From assembly GCF_003641205.1 (NCBI RefSeq), contig NZ_CP032762.1:4216001-4280000 (forward strand): a DNA stretch of 64,000 nucleotides, written 5' to 3'. How positions within the stretch are numbered: the stretch's first letter is position 1; each line of letters begins with the position of its first letter. Positions 45,427 through 57,457 of the stretch are shown one piece after another. The notes beneath the pieces are model-generated. The model was not told where the DNA came from and searched no databases. It worked only from the letters and a program-made list of their open reading frames with translations. Origin of the DNA: Rhodococcus sp. P1Y (GTDB taxonomy: Bacteria > Actinomycetota > Actinomycetes > Mycobacteriales > Mycobacteriaceae). A program made the translations under genes and the position numbers.

Positions 45427-46620
45427 GCGCACCACAGCGTCGGCGAGCAGCCGTCCCCGATCGGTCAGGACGTAGTTCTCACCCTCCACGACCATGAGAC
45501 CATCCGCGACGACCTGGTCCGCTGCACGGCGTTCCGAGTCGTCGAGCGCAGCCGCGGACAGACCGGTCCTGAGTCTGATTTCGAGCATGAGCTGTTCGAG
45601 GTGCCGGTCCCCGGCGGTCAGTAACTCGCTGCCCGCCACCGGAAGCTCACCCGACACCAACTGCTCTGCATATCGGGCGGGGTGCTTGACGTTCCAGAAG
45701 CGGGTGCCGCCGATGTGGCTGTGCGCGCCGGGACCTGCACCCCACCAGTCGCCGCCATCCCAGTAGCCGATGTTGTGCTTGCATTCGGCGTCTCGACCCG
45801 TAGCCCAGTTGGACACCTCGTACCAGTGCAGACCCGCCTCGGAAAGCACCGAATCGATGCGCTCGTATCTGCTGGCGAGCACATCGTCGTCCGGCATCGG
45901 AAGCTCGCCCCGGCGGACTTTCCTAGCCATTGCGGTGCCGTCCTCGACGATGAGCGCGTAGGCGGACACGTGGTCGACGCCTGCTTCCAGTACCGCAGCC
46001 AGCGACGCGTCCAGATCGACGTCGCGTTCGCCGGGGGTGCCGTAGATGAGGTCCAGGTTGACGTGATCGAACCCCGCCGCCCGCGCTTCCTTCGCCGCAG
46101 CAACCGCACGGCCAGGGGTATGCGTTCTGTCCAGAACTGCCAACACGTGCGGCGCGGCGGACTGCATGCCCAGGGAAATCCGGGTGAAGCCGGCGGAGTG
46201 CAGCTGCTCGAAGAACTCCGGTGATGTCGATTCCGGGTTCGATTCGGTGGTGACCTCGGCGTCCGTGGTGAGCCCGAAACTCCCGCGGACGGCGTCGAGC
46301 ACGTCGGTCAATCCACTTCCGCCGAGCAACGAGGGCGTCCCGCCCCCGACGAACACCGTGTCGGCCGTGGGGACGTGCCCGGCCCGCTCGCTCATCAACG
46401 CGGCCGCAGCACCGAGTTCGCGACGGAGCCCTTCCATCCACGACTGCGGCGACGCGGAAGTTCCCAGCTCACCGGCCGTGTAGGTGTTGAAATCGCAGTA
46501 TCCGCACCGAGTAGCGCAGAAGGGGACATGGACGTAGATCCCGAACGGCCGTCGTCCCACGCCCTCGAATGCCGCGTCGGGCAATTCGAGATGGGCGGTG
46601 GGTGCAGCCAGAAGATTCAC
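45412..46620 (-). CDS. hemW: HemW-like radical SAM protein (coproporphyrinogen oxidase family)
   Basis: This is a 402-residue radical SAM protein. The iron-sulfur motif is FCATRCGYCDF (C-x3-C-x2-C), preceded by FGIYVHVP; other motifs are VFVGGGTPSLLGG, LGMQSAAPHVL and NLDLIYGTPGERD. It lacks the N-terminal Cys cluster of true HemN in the part visible, so I favour HemW, a heme chaperone. The GTG start has GGGAG 9 bases upstream. The 3' end overlaps a tandem repeat. Confidence 0.9.
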   Translation of the reverse strand: MNLLAAPTAHLELPDAAFEGVGRRPFGIYVHVPFCATRCGYCDFNTYTAGELGTSASPQSWMEGLRRELGAAAALMSERAGHVPTADTVFVGGGTPSLLGGSGLTDVLDAVRGSFGLTTDAEVTTESNPESTSPEFFEQLHSAGFTRISLGMQSAAPHVLAVLDRTHTPGRAVAAAKEARAAGFDHVNLDLIYGTPGERDVDLDASLAAVLEAGVDHVSAYALIVEDGTAMARKVRRGELPMPDDDVLASRYERIDSVLSEAGLHWYEVSNWATGRDAECKHNIGYWDGGDWWGAGPGAHSHIGGTRFWNVKHPARYAEQLVSGELPVAGSELLTAGDRHLEQLMLEIRLRTGLSAAALDDSERRAADQVVADGLMVVEGENYVLTDRGRLLADAVVRAIAA

Positions 46621-46695
46621 CGGTCCAGTCTCCCAGAAGCCGCTACACTCCCCCGCCACCGATGCGATCGAAAACTTTTCACCTGCTCTGCCAGC

Positions 46696-46723
46696 CTATT
46701 TACCTTCGATTTGGGGTAAATAG
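46696..46723. promoter_or_regulatory. inverted repeat between hemW and the sulfite reductase operon
   Basis: CTATTTACC (46696-46704) and its exact complement (46715-46723) flank 10 bases in the 388-base gap. It lies about 50 bases upstream of the -10 of the leader peptide and could be an operator for the sulfur operon or the hemW promoter. Confidence 0.4.
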
Positions 46724-46757
46724 CGCTACCGCGGTCGGACCTGGGCTTAGGCCGTGG

Positions 46758-46763
46758 CACAAT
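46758..46763 (+). promoter_or_regulatory. -10-like element CACAAT ahead of the cysteine leader peptide
   Basis: CACAAT ends 7 bases before the GTG at 46771, the spacing expected if transcription starts on that GTG, making a leaderless message. No convincing -35 is seen (TCGGAC at the right place). Confidence 0.45.
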
Positions 46764-46770
46764 GGTCACC

Positions 46771-46866
46771 GTGACTGACTCTGGGATCCCCCTCGTGGCG
46801 CGCCGCCATGTAGATCTCAAGCGTGTTTGCAGTTCGTCGTGTCGTTGTTGTCGAGCATGTAGCTGA
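46771..46866 (+). CDS. cysteine-rich leader peptide of the sulfite reductase operon
   Basis: GTG-initiated 31-residue frame ending CSSSCRCCRACS-stop, with Cys at positions 20, 24, 26, 27 and 30 and none earlier. It has no Shine-Dalgarno but lies 7 bases after CACAAT, so it is likely leaderless. It ends 142 bases upstream of the sulfite reductase start. Leaderless cysteine-rich frames that act as cysteine-responsive attenuators have been reported in mycobacteria; by analogy, slow translation of the Cys codons when cysteine is scarce would raise expression of the downstream genes. An in-frame ATG at 46762 is an alternative start. Confidence 0.7.
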   Translation: MTDSGIPLVARRHVDLKRVCSSSCRCCRACS

Positions 46867-47008
46867 GCTCTGCGCCAGCCCGCTCGACCCGGCCTACAGC
46901 AGCACATTTCTCGTCAGACCCAAGATCCGTCCGGATGAGCGTGCACGCGGTGAGAATCAGCCCTCTCTCCGCAGCCGCCCGGGAGTCGAAAGATCCAGGA
47001 GCACATCG

Positions 47009-48742
47009 ATGTCGTCGACCACCGACGCGGCAACGCCCGCCGCATCGTCCGACCCCGCGCGCGTTGCCCCGAGGGAACGCACCGCTCGTCCGACGAAGCG
47101 CAGGGCCGAGGGCCAGTGGGCACTCGGTTATCGTGAGCCGCTGAACGCGAACGAGCAGGCGAAGAAGGACGACAACCCGCTCAACGTTCGCGCCCGCATC
47201 GAGAACATCTACTCGAAACAGGGCTTCGACAGCATCGACAAGGGCGACCTACGCGGCCGCTTCCGCTGGTGGGGTCTTTACACCCAGCGTGAGCAGGGCT
47301 ACGACGGCACGTTCACCGGCGACGAGAATCTCGACCTGCTCGAAGCCCGGTACTTCATGATGCGCATCCGGTGCGACGCTGGAGCGCTCAACGTCGAGCA
47401 GCTCCGTACTCTCGCCGGTATCTCGAAGGACTTCGGTCGCGACACCGCCGACTTGTCCGATCGCGAGAACGTTCAGTACCACTGGATCGAGGTCGAAAAC
47501 GTCCCCGAGATCTGGCGTCGCATCGAAGCAGTGGGTCTGAAGACGACCGAGGCCTGCGGCGACTGCCCACGCGTCGTGCTCGGGTCCCCGTTGGCTGGCG
47601 AAGCCGTGGACGAGATCCTGGACCCGACCCCCGCTATCGACCAGATCGTCGAGCGCTACATCGGCAAGCCGGAGTACTCGAACCTCCCACGCAAGTTCAA
47701 GACGGCGATCTCCGGACTCCAGGACGTCGTTCACGAGATCAACGACGTCGCCTTCATCGGCGTCAACCACCCCGAACACGGCCCTGGCCTCGACCTCTGG
47801 GTCGGCGGCGGTCTGTCCACCAACCCGATGCTGGCGCAGCGCGTCGGCGTCTGGGTGCCGCTCGCCGAAGTCCCCGACGTGTGGGAGGGCGTTGTGTCGA
47901 TCTTCCGCGACTACGGCTACCGCCGTCTGCGCGCGAAGGCCCGGCTCAAGTTCCTCATCAAGGACTGGGGCATCGAGAAGTTCCGCCAGGTGCTCGAAGA
48001 CGAGTACCTGCATCGCAAGCTCATCGACGGGCCCGCACCCGAGAAGCCCTCACGTCCGCGTGATCACGTCGGCATTCAGAAGCTGAAAAACGGGCTCAAC
48101 GCGGTCGGCGTCGCGCCCATCGCTGGACGCGTCTCCGGCACGATCCTGGGTCAGGTCGCCGACGCTGCCGAGAAGGCAGGCTCGGACCGCATCCGCTTCA
48201 CGCCGTACCAAAAGCTCATCGTGCTCGACGTGCCCGACGACAAGCTCGAAGCACTGATCAGCGATCTGGACGCGCTGGGTCTCCCGGCCAGGCCGTCGCA
48301 CTGGCGCAAGAACCTGATGGCCTGCAGCGGGATCGAATTCTGCAAGCTGTCGTTCGCCGAAACCCGAAAGCGTTCACAGGTTCTCGTCCCCGAACTCGAG
48401 CAGCGCCTAGCCGACATCAACAGCCAGCTCGACGTCCCGGTGACCATCAACATCAACGGATGCCCCAACTCGTGTGCGCGGTCGCAGATCGCCGATATCG
48501 GATTCAAGGGGATGTTGGTCGACGACGGCGACGGGAATCAGGTCGAGGGCTTCCAGGTTCACCTAGGAGGCAGCCTCGGACTGGACAGTGCATTCGGGCG
48601 CAAGTTGCGTCAGCACAAGGTCAACAGCACCGAGCTGGGAGATTACATCGACAGAGTGGTGCGGAATTTCGTGAAGCACCGCGAAGACGGCGAACGGTTC
48701 GCTCAGTGGGCCGTACGAGCAGACGAGGCGGATTTGCGATGA
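47009..48742 (+). CDS. sirA: ferredoxin-dependent sulfite reductase (siroheme, 4Fe-4S)
   Basis: This is a 577-residue enzyme reducing sulfite to sulfide with electrons from ferredoxin. Two repeated halves are visible; the siroheme/cluster ligands are Cys in ACSGIEFCKLSFAETR and NINGCPNSCARSQIAD (C-x5-C, C-x3-C). TEACGDCPRVVLGSPLAG is another conserved block. Similarity is to mycobacterial SirA/NirA rather than to NADPH-CysI. The ATG has AGGAG 7 bases upstream; a longer frame from 46823 is rejected. It is followed by cysH with an ATGA overlap. A cysteine leader peptide lies upstream. Confidence 0.95.
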   Translation: MSSTTDAATPAASSDPARVAPRERTARPTKRRAEGQWALGYREPLNANEQAKKDDNPLNVRARIENIYSKQGFDSIDKGDLRGRFRWWGLYTQREQGYDGTFTGDENLDLLEARYFMMRIRCDAGALNVEQLRTLAGISKDFGRDTADLSDRENVQYHWIEVENVPEIWRRIEAVGLKTTEACGDCPRVVLGSPLAGEAVDEILDPTPAIDQIVERYIGKPEYSNLPRKFKTAISGLQDVVHEINDVAFIGVNHPEHGPGLDLWVGGGLSTNPMLAQRVGVWVPLAEVPDVWEGVVSIFRDYGYRRLRAKARLKFLIKDWGIEKFRQVLEDEYLHRKLIDGPAPEKPSRPRDHVGIQKLKNGLNAVGVAPIAGRVSGTILGQVADAAEKAGSDRIRFTPYQKLIVLDVPDDKLEALISDLDALGLPARPSHWRKNLMACSGIEFCKLSFAETRKRSQVLVPELEQRLADINSQLDVPVTININGCPNSCARSQIADIGFKGMLVDDGDGNQVEGFQVHLGGSLGLDSAFGRKLRQHKVNSTELGDYIDRVVRNFVKHREDGERFAQWAVRADEADLR

Positions 48743-49449
48743 GTACCCGTATGGATTTGTCGGTCGACGAGCTGAAGGCGATCGCCGAGCGCGGCGCCCG
48801 TGAACTCGACGGCGCGAACGCCGTCGAGCTTCTCGAGTGGACCGAACGTGAGTTCGGAAAGAACTTCATCGTCGCGTCGAACATGCAGGATGCCGTTCTG
48901 GTTCACCTTGCAGCACAGGTGCGTCCGGGTGTCGACGTCTTGTTCCTCGATACCGGCTACCACTTCGCCGAGACCATCGGCACCCGCGACGCCGTCGAGG
49001 CTGTCTACGGCGTCAACATCATCAACGCGCGTGCGGATCTCACTGTCCCGCAGCAGGATGCGATCGAGGGCAAGGACCTGTTCGCGCGCGAGCCGAACCG
49101 GTGCTGCGCCATGCGCAAGGTCGCACCGCTCAAGAAGGAACTGGCGAACTACAGCGCCTGGGTCACCGGCATTCGACGGGTCGAGGCCCCCACCCGGGCC
49201 AACGCGCCCCTCGTTTCGTTCGACGACGCATTCGGACTGGTGAAGATCAATCCGATCGCCGCATGGTCCGACGACGACATGCAGCGTTACATCGACGAAC
49301 ACTCCATCCTCGTCAACCCGCTCGTCGACGAAGGATATCCCTCGATCGGGTGCGCACCGTGCACCGTCAAGCCCGCCCCCGGCGCCGATCCGCGTAGCGG
49401 TCGGTGGGCCGGTAAGGCCAAAACGGAATGTGGGTTGCACGCCTCATGA
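48739..49449 (+). CDS. cysH: APS reductase (phosphoadenylyl/adenylyl-sulfate reductase)
   Basis: This is a 236-residue reductase. The 4Fe-4S cysteines of the APS-specific class are present as a vicinal pair in PNRCCAMRKVAP and as GCAPCTVKP, and the catalytic Cys is in TECGLH at the C-terminus. The cluster marks it as using APS directly, so no APS kinase is needed, in agreement with the absence of a CysC domain nearby. It overlaps sirA and cysD by 4 bases each (ATGA). Confidence 0.95.
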   Translation: MSTRMDLSVDELKAIAERGARELDGANAVELLEWTEREFGKNFIVASNMQDAVLVHLAAQVRPGVDVLFLDTGYHFAETIGTRDAVEAVYGVNIINARADLTVPQQDAIEGKDLFAREPNRCCAMRKVAPLKKELANYSAWVTGIRRVEAPTRANAPLVSFDDAFGLVKINPIAAWSDDDMQRYIDEHSILVNPLVDEGYPSIGCAPCTVKPAPGADPRSGRWAGKAKTECGLHAS

Positions 49450-50387
49450 CATCGACATCGACAGTGCTGTCCGAGCGCACCACCATCGACAGCGACCGTT
49501 TCGACACCCTCGACGCTCTCGAATCGGAAGCCATTCACATCTTTCGAGAGGTTGCCGGCGAGTTCGAGCGGCCGGTCATCCTGTTCTCCGGCGGCAAGGA
49601 CTCGACGGTCCTGCTGCACCTGGCGATCAAGGCGTTCTGGCCTGCCCCGCTGCCGTTCACGCTGCTCCACGTCGACACCGGCCACAACCTGCAGGAGGTG
49701 TTGGACTTCCGCGACTACGTCGTGGCCAAGTACAACCTGCGCCTGCATGTCGCCAGCGTGGAGGACTACATCGCCGACGGCCGTCTCACCGAGCGCCCGG
49801 ACGGAATTCGTAACCCGTTGCAGACCGTGCCCCTGTTGGACTCCATCTCGGAGAACCGCTTCGATGCAATCTTCGGCGGAGCCCGTCGCGACGAGGAACG
49901 TGCGCGCGCCAAGGAGCGAATCTTCTCTTTGCGCAACGCCTTCGGCCAGTGGGACCCCAAGAAGCAGCGTCCCGAGCTGTGGAATCTGTACAACGGCAAG
50001 CACTCACCGGGTGAGCAGGTGCGAGTGTTTCCACTGAGCAACTTCACCGAACTCGACATCTGGCGCTACATTGCCCGCGAAAACGTCGAACTCGCCAGCA
50101 TCTACTACGCCCACCAGCGCCCGGTCTACCAGCGTGACGGTATGTGGATGACGCCCGGCGTGTGGGGTGGTCCCACCGAATCGGAAGAGTTGCAGACCCT
50201 CTCGGTGCGCTACCGCACCGTCGGCGACGGATCCACCACCGGCGCTGTTCTGTCGGACGCCGCCGACAACGAGGCAATTCTGGCCGAAGTGGCCGCATCC
50301 CGCCTCACCGAACGCGGCGCAACCCGCGGTGACGACCGCGTCTCCGAGGCAGCCATGGAAGACCGCAAGCGCGAAGGATACTTCTGA
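49446..50387 (+). CDS. cysD: sulfate adenylyltransferase small subunit CysD
   Basis: This 313-residue subunit makes APS from sulfate and ATP with CysN. The PP-loop is VILFSGGKDSTVLLHLA; other conserved parts are HVDTGHNLQEVLDFRD, IFGGARRDEERARAKERIFS and the C-terminal EAAMEDRKREGYF. It is linked to cysH by ATGA and to cysN by TGATG, so the subunits are translated together. Confidence 0.96.
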   Translation: MTSTSTVLSERTTIDSDRFDTLDALESEAIHIFREVAGEFERPVILFSGGKDSTVLLHLAIKAFWPAPLPFTLLHVDTGHNLQEVLDFRDYVVAKYNLRLHVASVEDYIADGRLTERPDGIRNPLQTVPLLDSISENRFDAIFGGARRDEERARAKERIFSLRNAFGQWDPKKQRPELWNLYNGKHSPGEQVRVFPLSNFTELDIWRYIARENVELASIYYAHQRPVYQRDGMWMTPGVWGGPTESEELQTLSVRYRTVGDGSTTGAVLSDAADNEAILAEVAASRLTERGATRGDDRVSEAAMEDRKREGYF

Positions 50388-51688
50388 TGGGCTCACAGCT
50401 TCTACGTCTCGCCACCGCAGGCAGTGTCGACGACGGCAAGTCCACCCTGGTCGGGCGGTTGCTGTACGACACGAAATCCGTTCTAGCCGACCAGATCGAC
50501 GCCGTCACCCGCGCGTCCGTGGACCGCGGCCTCAGCACTCCCGACCTGTCGTTGCTCGTCGACGGCTTGCGTGCCGAGCGCGAACAGGGCATCACCATCG
50601 ACGTGGCGTACCGCTACTTCGCTACGCCTGCGCGCTCGTTCGTACTCGCCGATACCCCGGGACACGTTCAGTACACCCGCAATACCGTGTCCGGCGCCTC
50701 GACGGCTCAGCTTGTCATTCTCCTCGTCGATGCCCGTAAAGGCGTCATCACCCAGACCCGCAGGCACGCCGCGGTTCTCGCACTTCTCGGAGTACCCAAG
50801 CTGGTTCTCGCCGTCAACAAGATCGACCTCGTCCCCGACCCGGCTCAGGTGTTTGCGGACATCTCCGCGGAATTCAACTCCCTGACGAGTTCGCTGGGGT
50901 GGGCAACCGAGGACGTCACCGAGATTCCCGTCTCTGCGCTGCACGGCGACAACGTCGCTGTGCGTTCGACGAACACCCCGTACTACGACGGGCCCACCCT
51001 GATCGAACATCTCGAGTCGGTGCCGGTCGATGCCGAACCTCATCGCGTCGGTCTCAGGTTCCCCGTCCAGTACGTCATTCGCCCTCGCACGGCAGAATTC
51101 CCGGACTACCGCGGTTACGCCGGACAGGTCGCGGCAGGCACCGTATCCCCCGGCGACGAGGTACTCGTTCTTCCGTCGGGCACCCGGACCACTGTCGAGC
51201 GCATCGACACCGCCGACGGCGTACTCGCAACCGCGAATGCCGGCCGAAGCGTCACCCTGATCCTCGCCGACGACGTCGACGTCTCGCGCGGCGACACCAT
51301 CGTCTCCCCACAGGATGCGCCGGAGCCCATCGGCGAATTCGACGCCACCGTGTGCTGGCTCGCCGAGAAGCCTCTACGCGCCGGTGCCCGCCTGCTTCTC
51401 AAGCACGGCACTCGAACGACTCAAGCCATTGTCGGCACGTTGGTGGAAAAGTTCGACGAGCAGAACCTCACAGCAGACCCCTCACCGGAGTCCTTGGAGC
51501 TCAACGACATCGGCCGAATCTCTGTTCGCGTGGCCGAGCCGATCGTCGCCGATGACTATGCCGTCAATCGCCATACCGGCAGCTTCCTGCTGATCGACCC
51601 GGCAGGCGGAAATACGCTCGCCGCAGGTCTCGTCGGCGATGCTCTGTCGGCGGTCGAACTCGGAACCGCCGCGCCTGCAGTTGTATGA
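50387..51688 (+). CDS. cysN: sulfate adenylyltransferase GTPase subunit CysN
   Basis: This 433-residue GTPase activates CysD. G1 is AGSVDDGKSTLVGRLL, then GITIDVAYRYF, DTPGHVQYTRN and VNKIDLVPD; the elongation-factor-like beta-barrels follow. The APS-kinase (CysC) domain fused to it in mycobacteria is missing, so this is the short form, consistent with a direct APS reductase route. It overlaps the next gene by ATGA. Confidence 0.95.
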   Translation: MGSQLLRLATAGSVDDGKSTLVGRLLYDTKSVLADQIDAVTRASVDRGLSTPDLSLLVDGLRAEREQGITIDVAYRYFATPARSFVLADTPGHVQYTRNTVSGASTAQLVILLVDARKGVITQTRRHAAVLALLGVPKLVLAVNKIDLVPDPAQVFADISAEFNSLTSSLGWATEDVTEIPVSALHGDNVAVRSTNTPYYDGPTLIEHLESVPVDAEPHRVGLRFPVQYVIRPRTAEFPDYRGYAGQVAAGTVSPGDEVLVLPSGTRTTVERIDTADGVLATANAGRSVTLILADDVDVSRGDTIVSPQDAPEPIGEFDATVCWLAEKPLRAGARLLLKHGTRTTQAIVGTLVEKFDEQNLTADPSPESLELNDIGRISVRVAEPIVADDYAVNRHTGSFLLIDPAGGNTLAAGLVGDALSAVELGTAAPAVV

Positions 51689-52434
51689 ACACCCTGATTG
51701 CCGTCGGACACGGCAGCCGCGATCCACGCTCCGAGCGCACCGTGGCAGCCGTCGTCCGACAGGTCCGCCGTCGACGTCCCGATCTCGACGTACGCGTGGC
51801 ATTCCTGGACTTGACGTCTCCCAGCGTCGACGAGGTGTTGAACGAGGTTGCCTCCGAAGGTATCCGGTCAGCTGTGCTTGTACCGTTGTTGCTGGGGAAC
51901 GCATTTCACGCACGTGTCGACCTGCCAGCTCTGCTGGACGCAGCGCGAGCTCGACATCCGCATCTGGTGCTGGTCCAGGCCGAGGTTCTCGGTGACGATC
52001 CGCGGTTGATCGCTGCTGTGCGGGCCCGCATCGTCCAGTCAGGTGTCGACATAGCCGACGCCGGGGTCGGCGTCTTGCTGACAGCTGTCGGCTCCTCGCA
52101 CGCTCCTGCCAATCAACGGACACGAGCATTGGCAGAACGCCTGCTGTCGGGCACTGCGTGGACCACTGCCGTGACCTGCTTTGCAACTGCTCGGGATCCG
52201 CAGCCGGCCGAAGCGTTGGCCCGCATCGAAGCGGCAGGCGCCGATCGAATCGTCGTCGCACCTTGGTTTCTCGCGCCCGGCCTGTTGACGGACCGGGTAT
52301 TCGACATCGTCGACGAGCTGATGCCGTCAGCCGTGCGTGCAGGCGTGCTGGGCGACCATCCGCTCGTCGCCGACGTGGTGTCGAGCCGTTACGAGACTGC
52401 GGCACTGACGGTCTCGACAAGAATCACCGCCTGA
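51685..52434 (+). CDS. sirohydrochlorin chelatase (CbiX/SirB family)
   Basis: This 249-residue two-domain chelatase inserts metal into sirohydrochlorin; in a sulfite reductase operon the metal should be iron, giving siroheme. Domain 1 starts LIAVGHGSRDPRSERTVAAV with the metal His and has a second His in NAFHARVDLPALL. Domain 2 repeats it: AVGSSHAPANQRTRALAERL, ending with VVAPWFLAPGLLTDRVFDIV. It is the last gene of the operon. Confidence 0.92.
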   Translation: MNTLIAVGHGSRDPRSERTVAAVVRQVRRRRPDLDVRVAFLDLTSPSVDEVLNEVASEGIRSAVLVPLLLGNAFHARVDLPALLDAARARHPHLVLVQAEVLGDDPRLIAAVRARIVQSGVDIADAGVGVLLTAVGSSHAPANQRTRALAERLLSGTAWTTAVTCFATARDPQPAEALARIEAAGADRIVVAPWFLAPGLLTDRVFDIVDELMPSAVRAGVLGDHPLVADVVSSRYETAALTVSTRITA

Positions 52435-53374: not shown

Positions 53375-54442
53375 CTAGCTCGACGCTGCTCGCTCCAGAG
53401 GGCTTGTTTCGACGACGTCTCCGGTGGATGCAATCTTGGGGATCCGCGTCGCCCGCGCGTAGACGGTTTCGCCCGGGGCGAGTTGCAGAGCTTCGCTGTC
53501 GCCGCGGGTGATCTGTGCAGCGAACTGTTCGCCGGTTGCGGTGTTCTTCAGTTCCACCTTGACCTCGAAACCGAGGTGCACGACGCGCTCCACGATTGCG
53601 CGCGTGACTCCAGCCGACTCTGCTGTACCGCTTGCCTGCGCTTGCGAGAGGGAGGGATCCCGGCCGACGCGGATGTCGTGCGGACGGACCAACTGACCAT
53701 TCAGTCGCGCGACCTGCCCGAGGAACGACATGACGAAGTTGTTGTCCGGCCGATCGTACAAGTCCTCGGGGGTTCCGATCTGTTCGATCCTGCCCTTGTT
53801 CAGCACCGCAATGCGGTCCGCGACATCGAGTGCTTCTTCCTGGTCGTGGGTGACCAGGACCGTCGTGACGTGGACCTCGTCGTGAAGGCGTCGTAGCCAT
53901 GTCCGTAGGTCCTCACGAACCTTGGCGTCCAATGCGCCGAACGGTTCGTCGAGCAGGAGTACCTGTGGATCGACAGCCAGCGCGCGGGCAAGAGCCATGC
54001 GCTGACGCTGTCCACCGGACAACTGCGCGGGAAAGCGAGTGTGAAATCCCGCGAGACCGACGATTTCGAGAAGCTCGTCCACCTTGCGCTTGATCTCGTC
54101 CTTGGGGCGCTTCCTGATCTTGAGCCCGAACGCGACGTTGTCTCGCACGCTGAGGTGTTTGAACGCCGCGTAGTGCTGGAACACGAACCCGATCTCGCGA
54201 CGCTGAGGACTGATCCAGGTGACGTCCTGGCCTCCGAGAATCACCTGGCCGGAGTCCAACTGTTCCAGGCCGGCAATAGATCTGAGCAGTGTCGACTTGC
54301 CCGACCCGCTGGGCCCGAGCAGGGCGGTCAGCGAACCTTTCGGTATGTCGATGCTGACGTTGTCGAGCGCTGCGAAGTCACCGTAATGCTTGTTGGCACC
54401 GACAACGGAGATTTCGATCTCGTCGGATTTCTGTACGGTCAT
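53375..54442 (-). CDS. cysA: sulfate ABC transporter ATPase CysA
   Basis: This is a 355-residue ATPase with a TOBE-like C-terminal domain. Walker A is [21 protein letters not shown]-loop [18 protein letters not shown], signature [16 protein letters not shown], Walker [16 protein letters not shown] and H-loop [15 protein letters not shown]. The C-terminal part ([14 protein letters not shown]) matches sulfate/molybdate importers. The start ATG overlaps the cysW stop as TAATG. It completes the leftward subI-cysT-cysW-cysA operon. Confidence 0.95.
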
Positions 54443-55242
54443 TACTTCGTCCTCTTCTTGTCGAGGGTCGTCATCAGGAGCAGGACGATGACGGCGATAG
54501 CCATGAGCAGAGTCGACGCGGCATATGCGCCCTGCTGGTTGAAGTCCTCGTAACGCGAGTTGACGAGAAGCGTCAAGGTTTGCGAAATGCCGGGAAGGTT
54601 CGTCGACACCATGATGACTGCACCGAACTCCCCGAGCGATCTCGCCACCGTCAGCACGATGCCGTACGTCAGTCCCCATCGGATCGCGGGAAGTGTGATT
54701 CGCCAGAACGTCTGCAGTGACGACGCACCGAGCGTGGAGGCCGCCTCTTCCTGTTCTTCACCGATCTCGTACAGGACCGGCTCGACTTCGCGAACCACGA
54801 ACGGGAGGGTGACGAAAATTGTTGCTATCACCATGCCAGGCAGGGCGAAGATGATCTTGAATCCGAGACTTTCCACTCCCCCGAACCAACCGTTGGCACC
54901 CCACAGCAGAATCAGCGCGACACCCGTGACGATCGGTGACACAGCGAACGGCAAATCGACGATGGCTTCGACGATTCCCTTGCCGCGGAATCGTCCTCGG
55001 ACCAGAGCGAGCGCAGTGATCACACCGAAGACGACGTTGATCGGCACGACTATAGCCACGATCAACAGCGACAACTGAAGCGCAGATTGCGAAGCGGGTG
55101 TCGTGATCAGACCCCAGAACGCGGCGAACCCGTCCTCGAACGTGCGATAGAGGATGGCGCCGAGAGGAAACAGAACAAGCGCGGCGAGGTAGAGCAATGC
55201 CACCGTGCGAAGCGAGATCTTGACCGGCAGTCCGATCTTCAT
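54442..55242 (-). CDS. cysW: sulfate ABC transporter permease CysW
   Basis: This is a 266-residue permease with six helices; the first is [20 protein letters not shown]. The ATPase-contact loop is [23 protein letters not shown] ([20 protein letters not shown]). The [20 protein letters not shown] segment is characteristic of CysW. Forms the membrane pore with CysT. Confidence 0.94.
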
Positions 55243-56138
55243 CGAGTTTGCTCCTCACGTCGCGCCAAACGGTTGCCGATGATGCGCAGGACGAACAGGA
55301 CGACGAAGGCCAGTGCCAACAACACCACCGAGATCGCGGCGGCGTCCACGGGCTGATCGTATTCGATCAGTTCACGGATGTACTGCGACGCAATCTGAGT
55401 CTCACCCGGGATGTTGCCCCCGATGAGCACAACGGACCCGAATTCGCCGATTGCGCGCGCAAACGCCAGACCGGTACCGCTGAGAACCGATGGAAGCAGG
55501 ACGGGCAGCACGATCGAACGAAATATCGTCCAATTGTTGGCCCCGAGCGATGCGGCTGCTTCCTCCACCTCGTTGTCGAGTTCGATCAGCACCGGCTGCA
55601 CGGCGCGCACGACAAATGGAAGTGTGACGAACAACAGGGCCACCACGACGGCAGGCTTGGTGGCGTTGAACACCAGACCGACAGGGCTCGCGGGGCCGTA
55701 CAACGACAGCAGCACGAGACTGGCAACAATGGTCGGCAGGGCGAACGGAAGATCGATCAACGCGTTGACGAACCGCTTGCCGGGGAACTCGTCACGAACG
55801 AGCACCCATGCGATCAGCGTTCCGAACACGAGGTTCACGAGGGCAGCAGCCGCCGACACCTCGAGCGTCACCTTGAACGTGGCCACGGCCCGAGGCGCAG
55901 TGACCGCGTCCCAGAAACCGACGATGCCGTCGTCGAAGGATTTGACGGTCAGAGCAGCGAGCGGCAGCAACACGATTACGCTGAGCCACAACATCGCCAC
56001 GCCGAGCCCGAACGGACCGACCGATCCGGACCCGCGGAACTTCTTCCCCTTGCGAGGAGAGGGCCGCAGGCCCGGACCACCGGGTGTGGAAGCTACGGAA
56101 CGACCCGGACTGTCGGGGTCGAGACTGGTCGAGGACAT
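55239..56138 (-). CDS. cysT: sulfate ABC transporter permease CysT
   Basis: This is a 299-residue permease with a 35-residue polar, Pro/Gly-rich N-tail and six helices, starting at FGLGVAMLWLSVIVLLPLAA. The conserved loop is NEVEEAAASLGANNWTIFRS and SGTGLAFARAIGEFGSVVLI follows. It overlaps cysW by ATGA. The pair with CysW imports sulfate or thiosulfate delivered by the binding lipoprotein. Confidence 0.94.
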   Translation of the reverse strand: MSSTSLDPDSPGRSVASTPGGPGLRPSPRKGKKFRGSGSVGPFGLGVAMLWLSVIVLLPLAALTVKSFDDGIVGFWDAVTAPRAVATFKVTLEVSAAAALVNLVFGTLIAWVLVRDEFPGKRFVNALIDLPFALPTIVASLVLLSLYGPASPVGLVFNATKPAVVVALLFVTLPFVVRAVQPVLIELDNEVEEAAASLGANNWTIFRSIVLPVLLPSVLSGTGLAFARAIGEFGSVVLIGGNIPGETQIASQYIRELIEYDQPVDAAAISVVLLALAFVVLFVLRIIGNRLARREEQTR

Positions 56139-56144
56139 GGTGTG

Positions 56145-57167
56145 CTACTTGGTGTTTTCTTTGTAAATCGTCGTGATCGCACCGGTGTCACCGAACAGTT
56201 CGGCGTCGACTGCATCCCAGCCACCGAGCTCGTCGATCGTGTGCAGGCTCGACGGGGTGAAGAACTTGTCGGAGAACTCAGCGGCGATCTCCGGGTTGGT
56301 CGGACGGAAACCGGCCTCGGCCCACACCCGCTGCCCCTCGTCGGTGTAGATGAAGTCGTTGAGCGCGTTGGCTTTGTCGAGTTGCGAGCTCGAGTTGACG
56401 ACAGCAACGGGGTTGTCGATGCGGAAGGTGTCCGCGACGTCGACGTGCTCGACCTTCTCGCCCTGCTCCTCGATCAGCAGAGCCTCGTTCTCGTAACTCA
56501 GCAGAACGTCACCCTGTCCTTGGAGGAAGGCTTCGGTCGCTGCCCGGCCGGATTCGGGCTGCACCGGAAAGTGACCGGACACGAGCTGTTGAACGTAGTC
56601 GAGTCCTGCTTGCTTGTTCTGACCGCCGTTGCTCTTCGCCGCATACGGCGCGAGAAGGTTCCACTTGGCCGAACCGGAGCTGAGCGGGCTAGGGCTGATG
56701 ACCTGAACGTCGGGCTTCAACAAGTCGTCCCAGGTTTGAATGTTCTTCGGGTTTCCCTCTCGCACGACCAGGGTGACAACGGAACCGAAAGGCACGCCGC
56801 CGTAAGCATTCTCGTTCCAGTTCTCGTCGACCTTGCCTGCTTTGACCAGACGGGTGACATCGGGCTCGACGGAGAAGTTCACGATGTCTGCGGGAGCGCC
56901 GTCGGCGACCTTGCGAGACTGATTGCCCGACGCGCCGTAGTCCGCGTTGATCGTCGTTCCCTCGCCTGCTTCGGTCTCGGCGAATGCGGGACCGATTGCG
57001 TCCCAGCCGTTCTTGGGCACTGCGTATCCGACGAGCGTGAGAGCTGATCCGCCGCCCGATCCGCCTTCGGCTCCGACGGTATCGCTCGAACCACCGCCGC
57101 AGGCGGCGAGGACAAGCGTTCCCACTGCAGCGAAGGTGGTGAGCAGGTATCGAGACTTGAGCCTCAT
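56145..57167 (-). CDS. subI: sulfate-binding lipoprotein
   Basis: This is a 340-residue lipoprotein. The signal peptide ends with VGTLVLAAC, a lipobox, followed by a Gly/Ser linker. The mature part has the sulfate-binding pattern TLVGYAVPKNGWDAIGPAF, DYGASGNQSRKVADGAPADI, VFPVQPESGRAATEAF-like and DEGQRVWAEAGFRP. It is the first gene of the transport operon, 6 bases before cysT. A second cysteine leader peptide lies 188 bases upstream. Confidence 0.95.
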   Translation of the reverse strand: MRLKSRYLLTTFAAVGTLVLAACGGGSSDTVGAEGGSGGGSALTLVGYAVPKNGWDAIGPAFAETEAGEGTTINADYGASGNQSRKVADGAPADIVNFSVEPDVTRLVKAGKVDENWNENAYGGVPFGSVVTLVVREGNPKNIQTWDDLLKPDVQVISPSPLSSGSAKWNLLAPYAAKSNGGQNKQAGLDYVQQLVSGHFPVQPESGRAATEAFLQGQGDVLLSYENEALLIEEQGEKVEHVDVADTFRIDNPVAVVNSSSQLDKANALNDFIYTDEGQRVWAEAGFRPTNPEIAAEFSDKFFTPSSLHTIDELGGWDAVDAELFGDTGAITTIYKENTK

Positions 57168-57355: not shown

Positions 57356-57457
57356 TCAGGATGCCGAGTGACAACAGTCGATATCAGCGACTGCGAGCAT
57401 GCCGACTGCGATCAACGCCAATTCATGGCGGACCTGGTACTCGGCTGCGTCGGACAC
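57356..57457 (-). CDS. cysteine-containing leader peptide of the sulfate transport operon
   Basis: GTG-initiated 33-residue frame that ends AVADIDCCHSAS-stop, with Cys-Cys at positions 28-29. The GTG lies 7 bases after a -10-like TAGATT (57465-57470), the same layout as the leader of the sulfite reductase operon, so it should be leaderless. It lies 188 bases upstream of the sulfate-binding protein gene in the same direction. Role by analogy: ribosome slowing at CC when cysteine is low lets the operon be expressed. An internal ATG (57400) could give a 14-residue form. Confidence 0.6.
   Translation of the reverse strand: MSDAAEYQVRHELALIAVGMLAVADIDCCHSAS

Follow-up and report, generated by a model that had tools for sequence, protein, structure and literature searches.

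A putative cysteine-responsive leader frame upstream of the sirA operon in Rhodococcus and the conservation of one of its UGU codons

Upstream of the sirA operon of Rhodococcus sp. P1Y lies a short GTG frame with a cluster of Cys codons near its stop. Is this frame a chance occurrence, or does it encode a leader peptide through which the operon responds to cysteine? In the second case a sharper question can be asked, namely whether the sensor is a run of Cys codons or one fixed-register UGU codon behind a conserved nascent peptide. An answer would place a cysteine-responsive leader system in rhodococci, whose sulfur metabolism bears on fuel desulfurisation. For the strain IGTS8, homologues of the sulfur regulators CysB, Cbl, CmbR, and McbR are reported missing in the available part of PMC8557817. 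The window, i.e., the whole stretch of DNA analysed here, comprises 64,000 nt (positions 4216001-4280000 of a single-contig genome of 5.87 Mb). Coordinates of features refer to the window.

The leader frame occupies 46771..46866 of the forward strand (MTDSGIPLVARRHVDLKRVCSSSCRCCRACS). Read directly from the sequence, it has 31 codons from the GTG at 46771 and ends with the stop TGA at 46864-46866; the GTG is assumed to be the transcription start as well. The Cys codons are, in order, TGC, TGT, TGT, TGT, and TGT, and all of them lie inside CSSSCRCCRACS. An earlier sequence-only reading of this DNA had described a 31-codon GTG frame with five Cys within the final 12 residues, preceded by CACAAT (46758-46763) at seven bases and followed by sirA after 142 nt. 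The sequence agrees with each of these statements; the 142 nt separate the leader stop from the sirA ATG at 47009. The same reading had called such clustering of Cys rare. For all short frames (10-60 aa) of the window, both strands included, we examined 1638 ATG/GTG starts. Only three of them, all nested in the leader frame, have five Cys in 12 residues, and 21 of the 1638 have a -10-like hexamer spaced for a leaderless start.

According to profile searches sirA (47009..48742, forward strand) is a sulfite/nitrite reductase-type gene. Its product is NirA/sulfite-reductase-like and scores below the cut-offs of those models. The genes cysH, cysD, cysN, and a CbiX-type chelatase gene follow on the same strand (48739..52434) with adjoining or overlapping starts, and profile matches back this gene order, which had previously been proposed from the letters. 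The Shine-Dalgarno (SD) sequence of sirA, AGGAG, is located at 46997..47001 (forward strand), and an SD-like sequence precedes the ATG in all 37 loci inspected. Over 46823-47008 the sirA frame is open and shares sequence with the leader, which may lead automatic annotation to place the sirA start too early. Open frames of the same genus range from 574 to 657 aa. An N-terminal extension of SirA was considered and is rejected on account of these varying lengths and of the SD-ATG at 47009.

Relatives provide a stronger test of chance than a window scan. We searched SirA in 61 related genomes, 54 of which matched, and kept the loci of the best 30; from GTDB species contigs the best 80 loci of at least 581 SirA relatives were kept. 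The closest named relatives by SirA, among the matches listed, are Rhodococcoides kyotonense (95%). The sequence-only reading had proposed comparing the upstream regions of relatives. In this comparison sirA is preceded in 106 of the 110 loci (best 30 of 54 plus best 80 of at least 581) by a short frame whose core is LVARRHVD(xxRVC); in the window the core is at 46792..46842 of the forward strand (LVARRHVDLKRVCSSSC). Two of the four loci without the frame are contig ends (L010 and L098), and the other two, L070 (Gordonia) and L109 (Williamsia), have full upstream DNA. Some loci are present in both collections. The stretch from core to stop is unique in 84 leaders, and when 60 nt upstream are included the number of unique sequences is 96; the close leaders include 57 unique core-to-stop peptides. 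Over the 12 codons from L to D+4, pN/pS is 0.18 in the 84 unique close leaders; in the 69 distant leaders described below it is 0.44. Third positions of the core change while the residues are kept, which indicates that selection acts on the peptide and makes translation of the leader frame most likely. Judging by these comparisons, we conclude that the frame is not a chance occurrence.

The promoter region is conserved as well. CACAAT belongs to an extended -10 element at 46755..46763 of the forward strand (TGGCACAAT), and the pattern TGGCAnn(A/T)T is found 6-7 nt ahead of an in-frame ATG (61 leaders) or GTG (35 leaders) in all 96 unique leaders. A leaderless-type placement of the predicted promoter is thus shown to be supported across relatives. 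Further upstream, 48-75 nt from the predicted leader start, a perfect 9-nt inverted repeat CTATTTACC-N10-GGTAAATAG occupies 46696..46723. The corresponding dyad, ATTT[AC]CC-N6..13-GG[TGA]AAA, is present in 73 of 97 unique upstream regions, with a spacer of 10 in all 73, against a mean of 0.0 per set in 20 mononucleotide shuffles. The inverted repeat is probably an operator of a transcription factor. The accessible text of PMC8557817 names an Rrf2/CymR-like candidate regulator for R. qingshengii IGTS8.

Which Cys codons could carry the signal? The emphasis that the sequence-only reading had put on the Cys cluster has to shift: from core to stop the close leaders have between 1 and 7 Cys, and a single UGU is nearly invariant. 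This proposed sensing codon is at 46840..46842 of the forward strand, nine residues after the core Asp (D+9). Cys stands at D+9 in 149 of 153 leaders (80/84 unique close and 69/69 unique distant ones) and is encoded by UGU in 139 of the 149. In 45 of the 69 distant leaders it is the sole Cys from core to stop. The exceptions (L044, L046, L048, and L094 among the unique close leaders, and L129) have shorter CSCL or CSCLG tails. L247, L248, and L251, with core scores under 20, were left out of the count.

Most of the distant leaders were obtained by searching the whole order with a sequence model whose last position is D+7; 178 of 200 genomes gave E <= 0.01. Weak matches of this search include chance ones, because the window's own genome gave an unrelated match at E 0.0015, and the distant places were hand-picked across many families. 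Six of the 69 (L262-L267) were chosen via an NCBI profile that may cover the Cys column; excluding them, Cys is at D+9 in 63/63 leaders, with UGU in 54. The gene downstream of the further leaders encodes SirA at 67 of 94 distinct places, a CysA-like protein at 4, and CysD at 3, and no query protein was found at 20 (the 94 places stem from 100 loci, six of which are the same places twice).

UGU is the minority Cys codon in the genes used as background. The sirA genes of 106 loci contain 747 UGC and 14 UGU among 761 Cys codons, which are non-independent since the genes are orthologous. Sixteen genes of the window contain 36 UGC and 14 UGU among 50. Inside the leaders themselves, Cys at D+5 is encoded by UGC in 76 cases and by UGU in 19. 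Binomial figures for UGU at D+9 are vanishingly small relative to either gene background if shared descent is ignored. The comparison singles out a fixed UGU at D+9, not the Cys run, as the apparent conserved cysteine signal of the leader. A ribosome pausing at D+9 would, as we assume, hold the conserved residues in the upper tunnel, approximately 2 to 12 positions from its P site. Such a position suggests that the nascent chain may contribute to sensing, and wobble reading of UGU could sharpen the sensitivity.

Other leaders with a similar core in the window's genome also have TGT at D+9. Three of them (L208, L209, and L215, at G000:C1:4704984, 5657390, and 5212428) have UGU nine residues past the Asp and precede, by profile, an SDF-family symporter, a family-5 solute-binding protein, and an OsmC/Cys-Met enzyme pair. 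Another, on the minus strand at G000:C1:2043532-2043600 (L204, VSFRHELLLTSRRTVDLCRLGGCCCRCC), has a -10 element TAGGAT at 7 nt. It is of the Ms5788A type (36.6 bits, under the cut-off of 45) and precedes genes for a DUF4395 protein and a rhodanese identified by profile. A less clear leader of this kind in the genome, at 57134, continues as a longer frame. A Cys at D+9 with a preference for UGU is possibly new: the literature searched yielded no statement of the D+9 UGU rule or of the hairpin with CAGCCC described below, and key papers lie beyond that search. In particular, a paper by Lyubetsky reportedly deals with PF00480/PF14340 genes and sulfur metabolism. PF14340 is DUF4395, found next to one leader here, so that paper may hold a part of what we call possibly new.

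A different leader of the leaderless type with Cys codons is found in the window on the reverse strand (57356..57457, VSDAAEYQVRHELALIAVGMLAVADIDCCHSAS). Its -10 element TAGATT is 7 nt before the GTG, and the frame lies 188 nt upstream of sbp, the first gene of the sulfate transporter operon sbp, cysT, cysW, cysA (53375..57167, reverse strand). Profiles identify Sbp and CysA; both permeases match BPD_transp_1 and are assigned to cysT and cysW by position. The leader belongs to the Ms4533A family (NF042937, 57.4 bits, above the cut-off of 31). Among 24 sbp loci compared, it is present in all 23 loci of the same genus, the window's own included, and absent from L197, which belongs to another family; six weaker sbp loci (L198-L203) stand outside this comparison.

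Between the leader and sirA we found one more conserved element. Of 47 representative spacers, 41 contain the hexamer CAGCCC, against a mean of 6.4 and a maximum of 12 in shuffles, and in 35 of these 41 it lies 43-62 nt ahead of the sirA ATG. In the window CAGCCC (46958-46963) begins 51 nt ahead of the ATG, in the loop of a hairpin at 46947..46972 of the forward strand (GCGGUGAGA-AUCAGCCC-UCUCUCCGC). The motif is often in a hairpin loop, and the stem sequence varies among close relatives. The native arms have a mean energy of -10.5 kcal/mol, and random re-pairing gives -6.6 (sd 0.46; the lowest of 5000 is -8.5). This permutation test took all motif-bearing representatives (41/47), including L005, L015, and L055. 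In a shuffle test, 19 of the 41 representatives were better than 95% of their own shuffles (approximately 2 expected), and 22 were not. In the covariation alignment A3, 66 cells changed on both sides against 33.2 in shuffles (0/500), a kind of count that relatedness inflates; a slide control of this test peaked at zero. A3 includes 42 of 62 unique windows. L015, L019, L024, L041, L055, and L060 were left out together with fourteen close relatives of rows that were retained; the stem of one of these relatives, L005, is broken.

The hairpin is not universal. CAGCCC is absent from 16 of the 96 unique leaders, seven of which belong to the R. fascians group (L014, L016, L020-L022, L025, and L026). 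In L015, L019, and L024 of the same group and in L041 it is found only more than 100 nt from sirA and lacks a good stem; in L052, where the distance is 111 nt, the stem is good; and in L055 and L060 it is outside the loop. The hairpin model R2 is too small for finding new sites (window 23.4 bits, E 0.089 with 71 sources; E 2 for the whole genome). Neither the 47 representative leaders nor the sirA genes behind them, over their first 300 nt, contain a partner GGG(C/U)UG for the loop, and we therefore reject a kissing interaction at these places. We regard the CAGCCC hairpin as a candidate readout element, which possibly acts through Rho control or initiation control.

Taken together, the frame very probably opens the sirA-cysH-cysD-cysN-chelatase transcript as a leaderless upstream frame at its 5' end and acts as a cysteine-responsive attenuator. 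The proposed promoter, start, and favoured codon follow from what is conserved in the anatomy of the leaders. Stalling, the sign of its effect, and its coupling to the expression of sirA are extrapolated from published relatives in M. smegmatis. Ribosomes would initiate at the 5' GTG of the leader. When Cys-tRNA is scarce, they would slow at the Cys codons, above all at the D+9 UGU (46840-46842), with the conserved RRHVDxxRVxS segment just within the exit tunnel. The stall would then raise the expression of the operon, which produces sulfide for cysteine. We count against the attenuator reading that L070 and L109 lack the frame, that folding energy is ordinary (z -0.34 and -0.80), and that CysDN and CysI of R. 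qingshengii IGTS8 show no significant difference between sulfate and dibenzothiophene, conditions other than cysteine starvation, in the available part of PMC8557817. Against it also stand the leaders without Cys at D+9 (L044, L046, L048, L094, and L129) and the result of the blocking test given below. A simple consensus scan of 46600-47100 likewise gave no intrinsic terminator, the mark of a classical transcription attenuator, and at gathering thresholds Rfam finds only a tRNA in the window.

How a stall might reach sirA can be imagined in several ways. A stalled ribosome could shield a C-rich stretch after the leader stop from Rho, which would restrict transcription of the operon to times of cysteine shortage; with plentiful cysteine Rho would stop transcription before sirA. 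An intrinsic terminator is indeed absent, Rho is weakly suggested for mycobacterial cys leaders in the accessible part of PMC1262725, and the spacers of 47 representatives, measured alone, are rich in C (mean 0.40) and poor in G (0.26). We nevertheless hold this version doubtful: in the distant leaders L217, L226, L228, L255, L256, L258, and L265 almost no spacer precedes sirA, which leaves such a site no room. Unmasking of the ribosome binding site by a stalled ribosome is the reported mechanism of one M. smegmatis leader. Here the Cys tract would pair with the sirA start region, and the stalled ribosome would disrupt the pairing. In a consensus fold of nine close leaders sirA codons 3-5 do pair with the Cys tract. 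None of its seven pairs, however, changes on both sides in any sequence, and covariation contributes a slightly unfavourable term (+1.2). The thermodynamic test in 47 representatives of the 96 was negative: blocking the mRNA at D+9 eased the opening of the sirA SD-start region by a mean of 0.18 kcal/mol, approximately as at the control position D-3 (0.17), and blocking at D+5 or at the stop gave -0.11 and -0.07 kcal/mol. With D+9 close to the control, unmasking is unsupported, and we consider it unlikely.

Explanations without attenuation fare worse in our assessment. The leader peptide could act in trans, e.g., bind a metal or a protein, and be merely co-transcribed with sirA. The strong purifying selection in close leaders (pN/pS 0.18) would suit such a peptide, but a trans function needs no near-fixed UGU at D+9, and distant forms often keep a single Cys from core to stop (45/69). 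We therefore consider it very improbable. It is hardly credible that the frame is incidental and that the region owes its conservation to a promoter or to an N-terminal extension of SirA. The window does keep the sirA frame free of stops back to 46823; however, this extension is not retained among same-genus matches (574-657 aa), the leader is conserved through synonymous changes, and the SD and ATG match a sirA start at 47009.

Within the attenuator reading we tentatively propose a more specific version. A single wobble-read UGU nine residues behind an arrest-like motif, RRHVDxxRVxSxx-C, would be the sensor. It would be ancestral and present across actinobacterial families, ahead of several operons per genome. 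The Cys clusters of rhodococci and mycobacteria would be later additions, and in rhodococci and nocardiae an undescribed hairpin with a CAGCCC loop would relay the signal to sirA.

It remains to compare the leader with known systems. The design is not new, since mycobacteria are known to have leaders of this type. A study of 2020 by Canestrari is said to report cysteine-responsive attenuation in M. smegmatis, and its title reportedly calls the leaders polycysteine-encoding frames. A paper of 2015 (PMC4633059, as far as available) had reported leaderless Cys frames ahead of cysA2, Rv0485, and nirA/Msmeg_4527. Cysteine-dependent attenuation via such frames in M. smegmatis, with operon expression that increases through the Cys codons under cysteine limitation, is described in the accessible part of PMC9031893, and the study (Canestrari 2020) is also cited in the available text of PMC9094748 and PMC13236596. 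Of the sequence-only reading, the leaderless frame gains good support from its conservation and from where the promoter lies, and cysteine sensing is backed by the published mycobacterial relatives. The claimed novelty does not hold. Records named Rhodococcus, Nocardia, Gordonia, Tsukamurella, and Mycobacterium have the same core ahead of sirA, which contradicts the "different peptide" and the "new genus", and curated NCBI models for such leaders already exist, so the design is not extended.

By its sequence the window leader corresponds, in rhodococci, to the leaderless Cys leader that mycobacteria have before nirA/Msmeg_4527. It is located immediately upstream of nirA/sirA and has its Cys codons clustered near the stop, as is typical of the Ms4527A type. 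The downstream gene, the leaderless-type GTG/ATG start, the core, and the C-terminal Cys cluster are in common. In contrast, the window tail is CSSSCRCCRACS, and the score with NF042936 (leader_Ms4527A) is 37.5 bits (E 1.2e-9), under the NCBI cut-off of 45. Across 41 genomes, the window's own included, 38 match NF042936 at E <= 0.1 and none reaches the cut-off, so that copies in the genus have probably been left unnamed. The spacers also differ: that of the window has 142 nt and the CAGCCC hairpin, whereas in same-family loci taken as Mycobacterium (L131-L137, L139, L140, L142, L144-L147, L149, L150, and L153) the aligned SirA start follows after approximately 44-86 nt. The broad model NF042934 (cis_reg_atten, a putative leader peptide) matches the same core, window residues 8-24, with 19.4 bits (cut-off 27), but the window peptide has extra Cys codons. 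No Pfam family was found for three leader peptides.

Less direct parallels exist as well. The leader before sbp, of the Ms4533A type, shares with the sirA leader the leaderless-type start, the terminal Cys codons, the sulfur pathway, and the window, but it has the core RHELALIAVGMLAVADIDCC and two Cys. Cys leader peptides with no conserved terminators were predicted in 2005 for Mycobacterium, P. acnes, and B. longum (PMC1262725, in its available part). The window leader resembles them as a short frame with Cys near the stop and no conserved terminator hairpin, whereas Rhodococcus has 0 mentions in the accessible text of that paper. A similar idea was put forward outside actinobacteria: uORFC-8-2 before cysS in Rhodobacterales is an upstream frame whose Cys codons are proposed as a sensor of Cys-tRNA, but in these alphaproteobacteria an intrinsic terminator is present and UGC is dominant (PMC8632094, as far as accessible).
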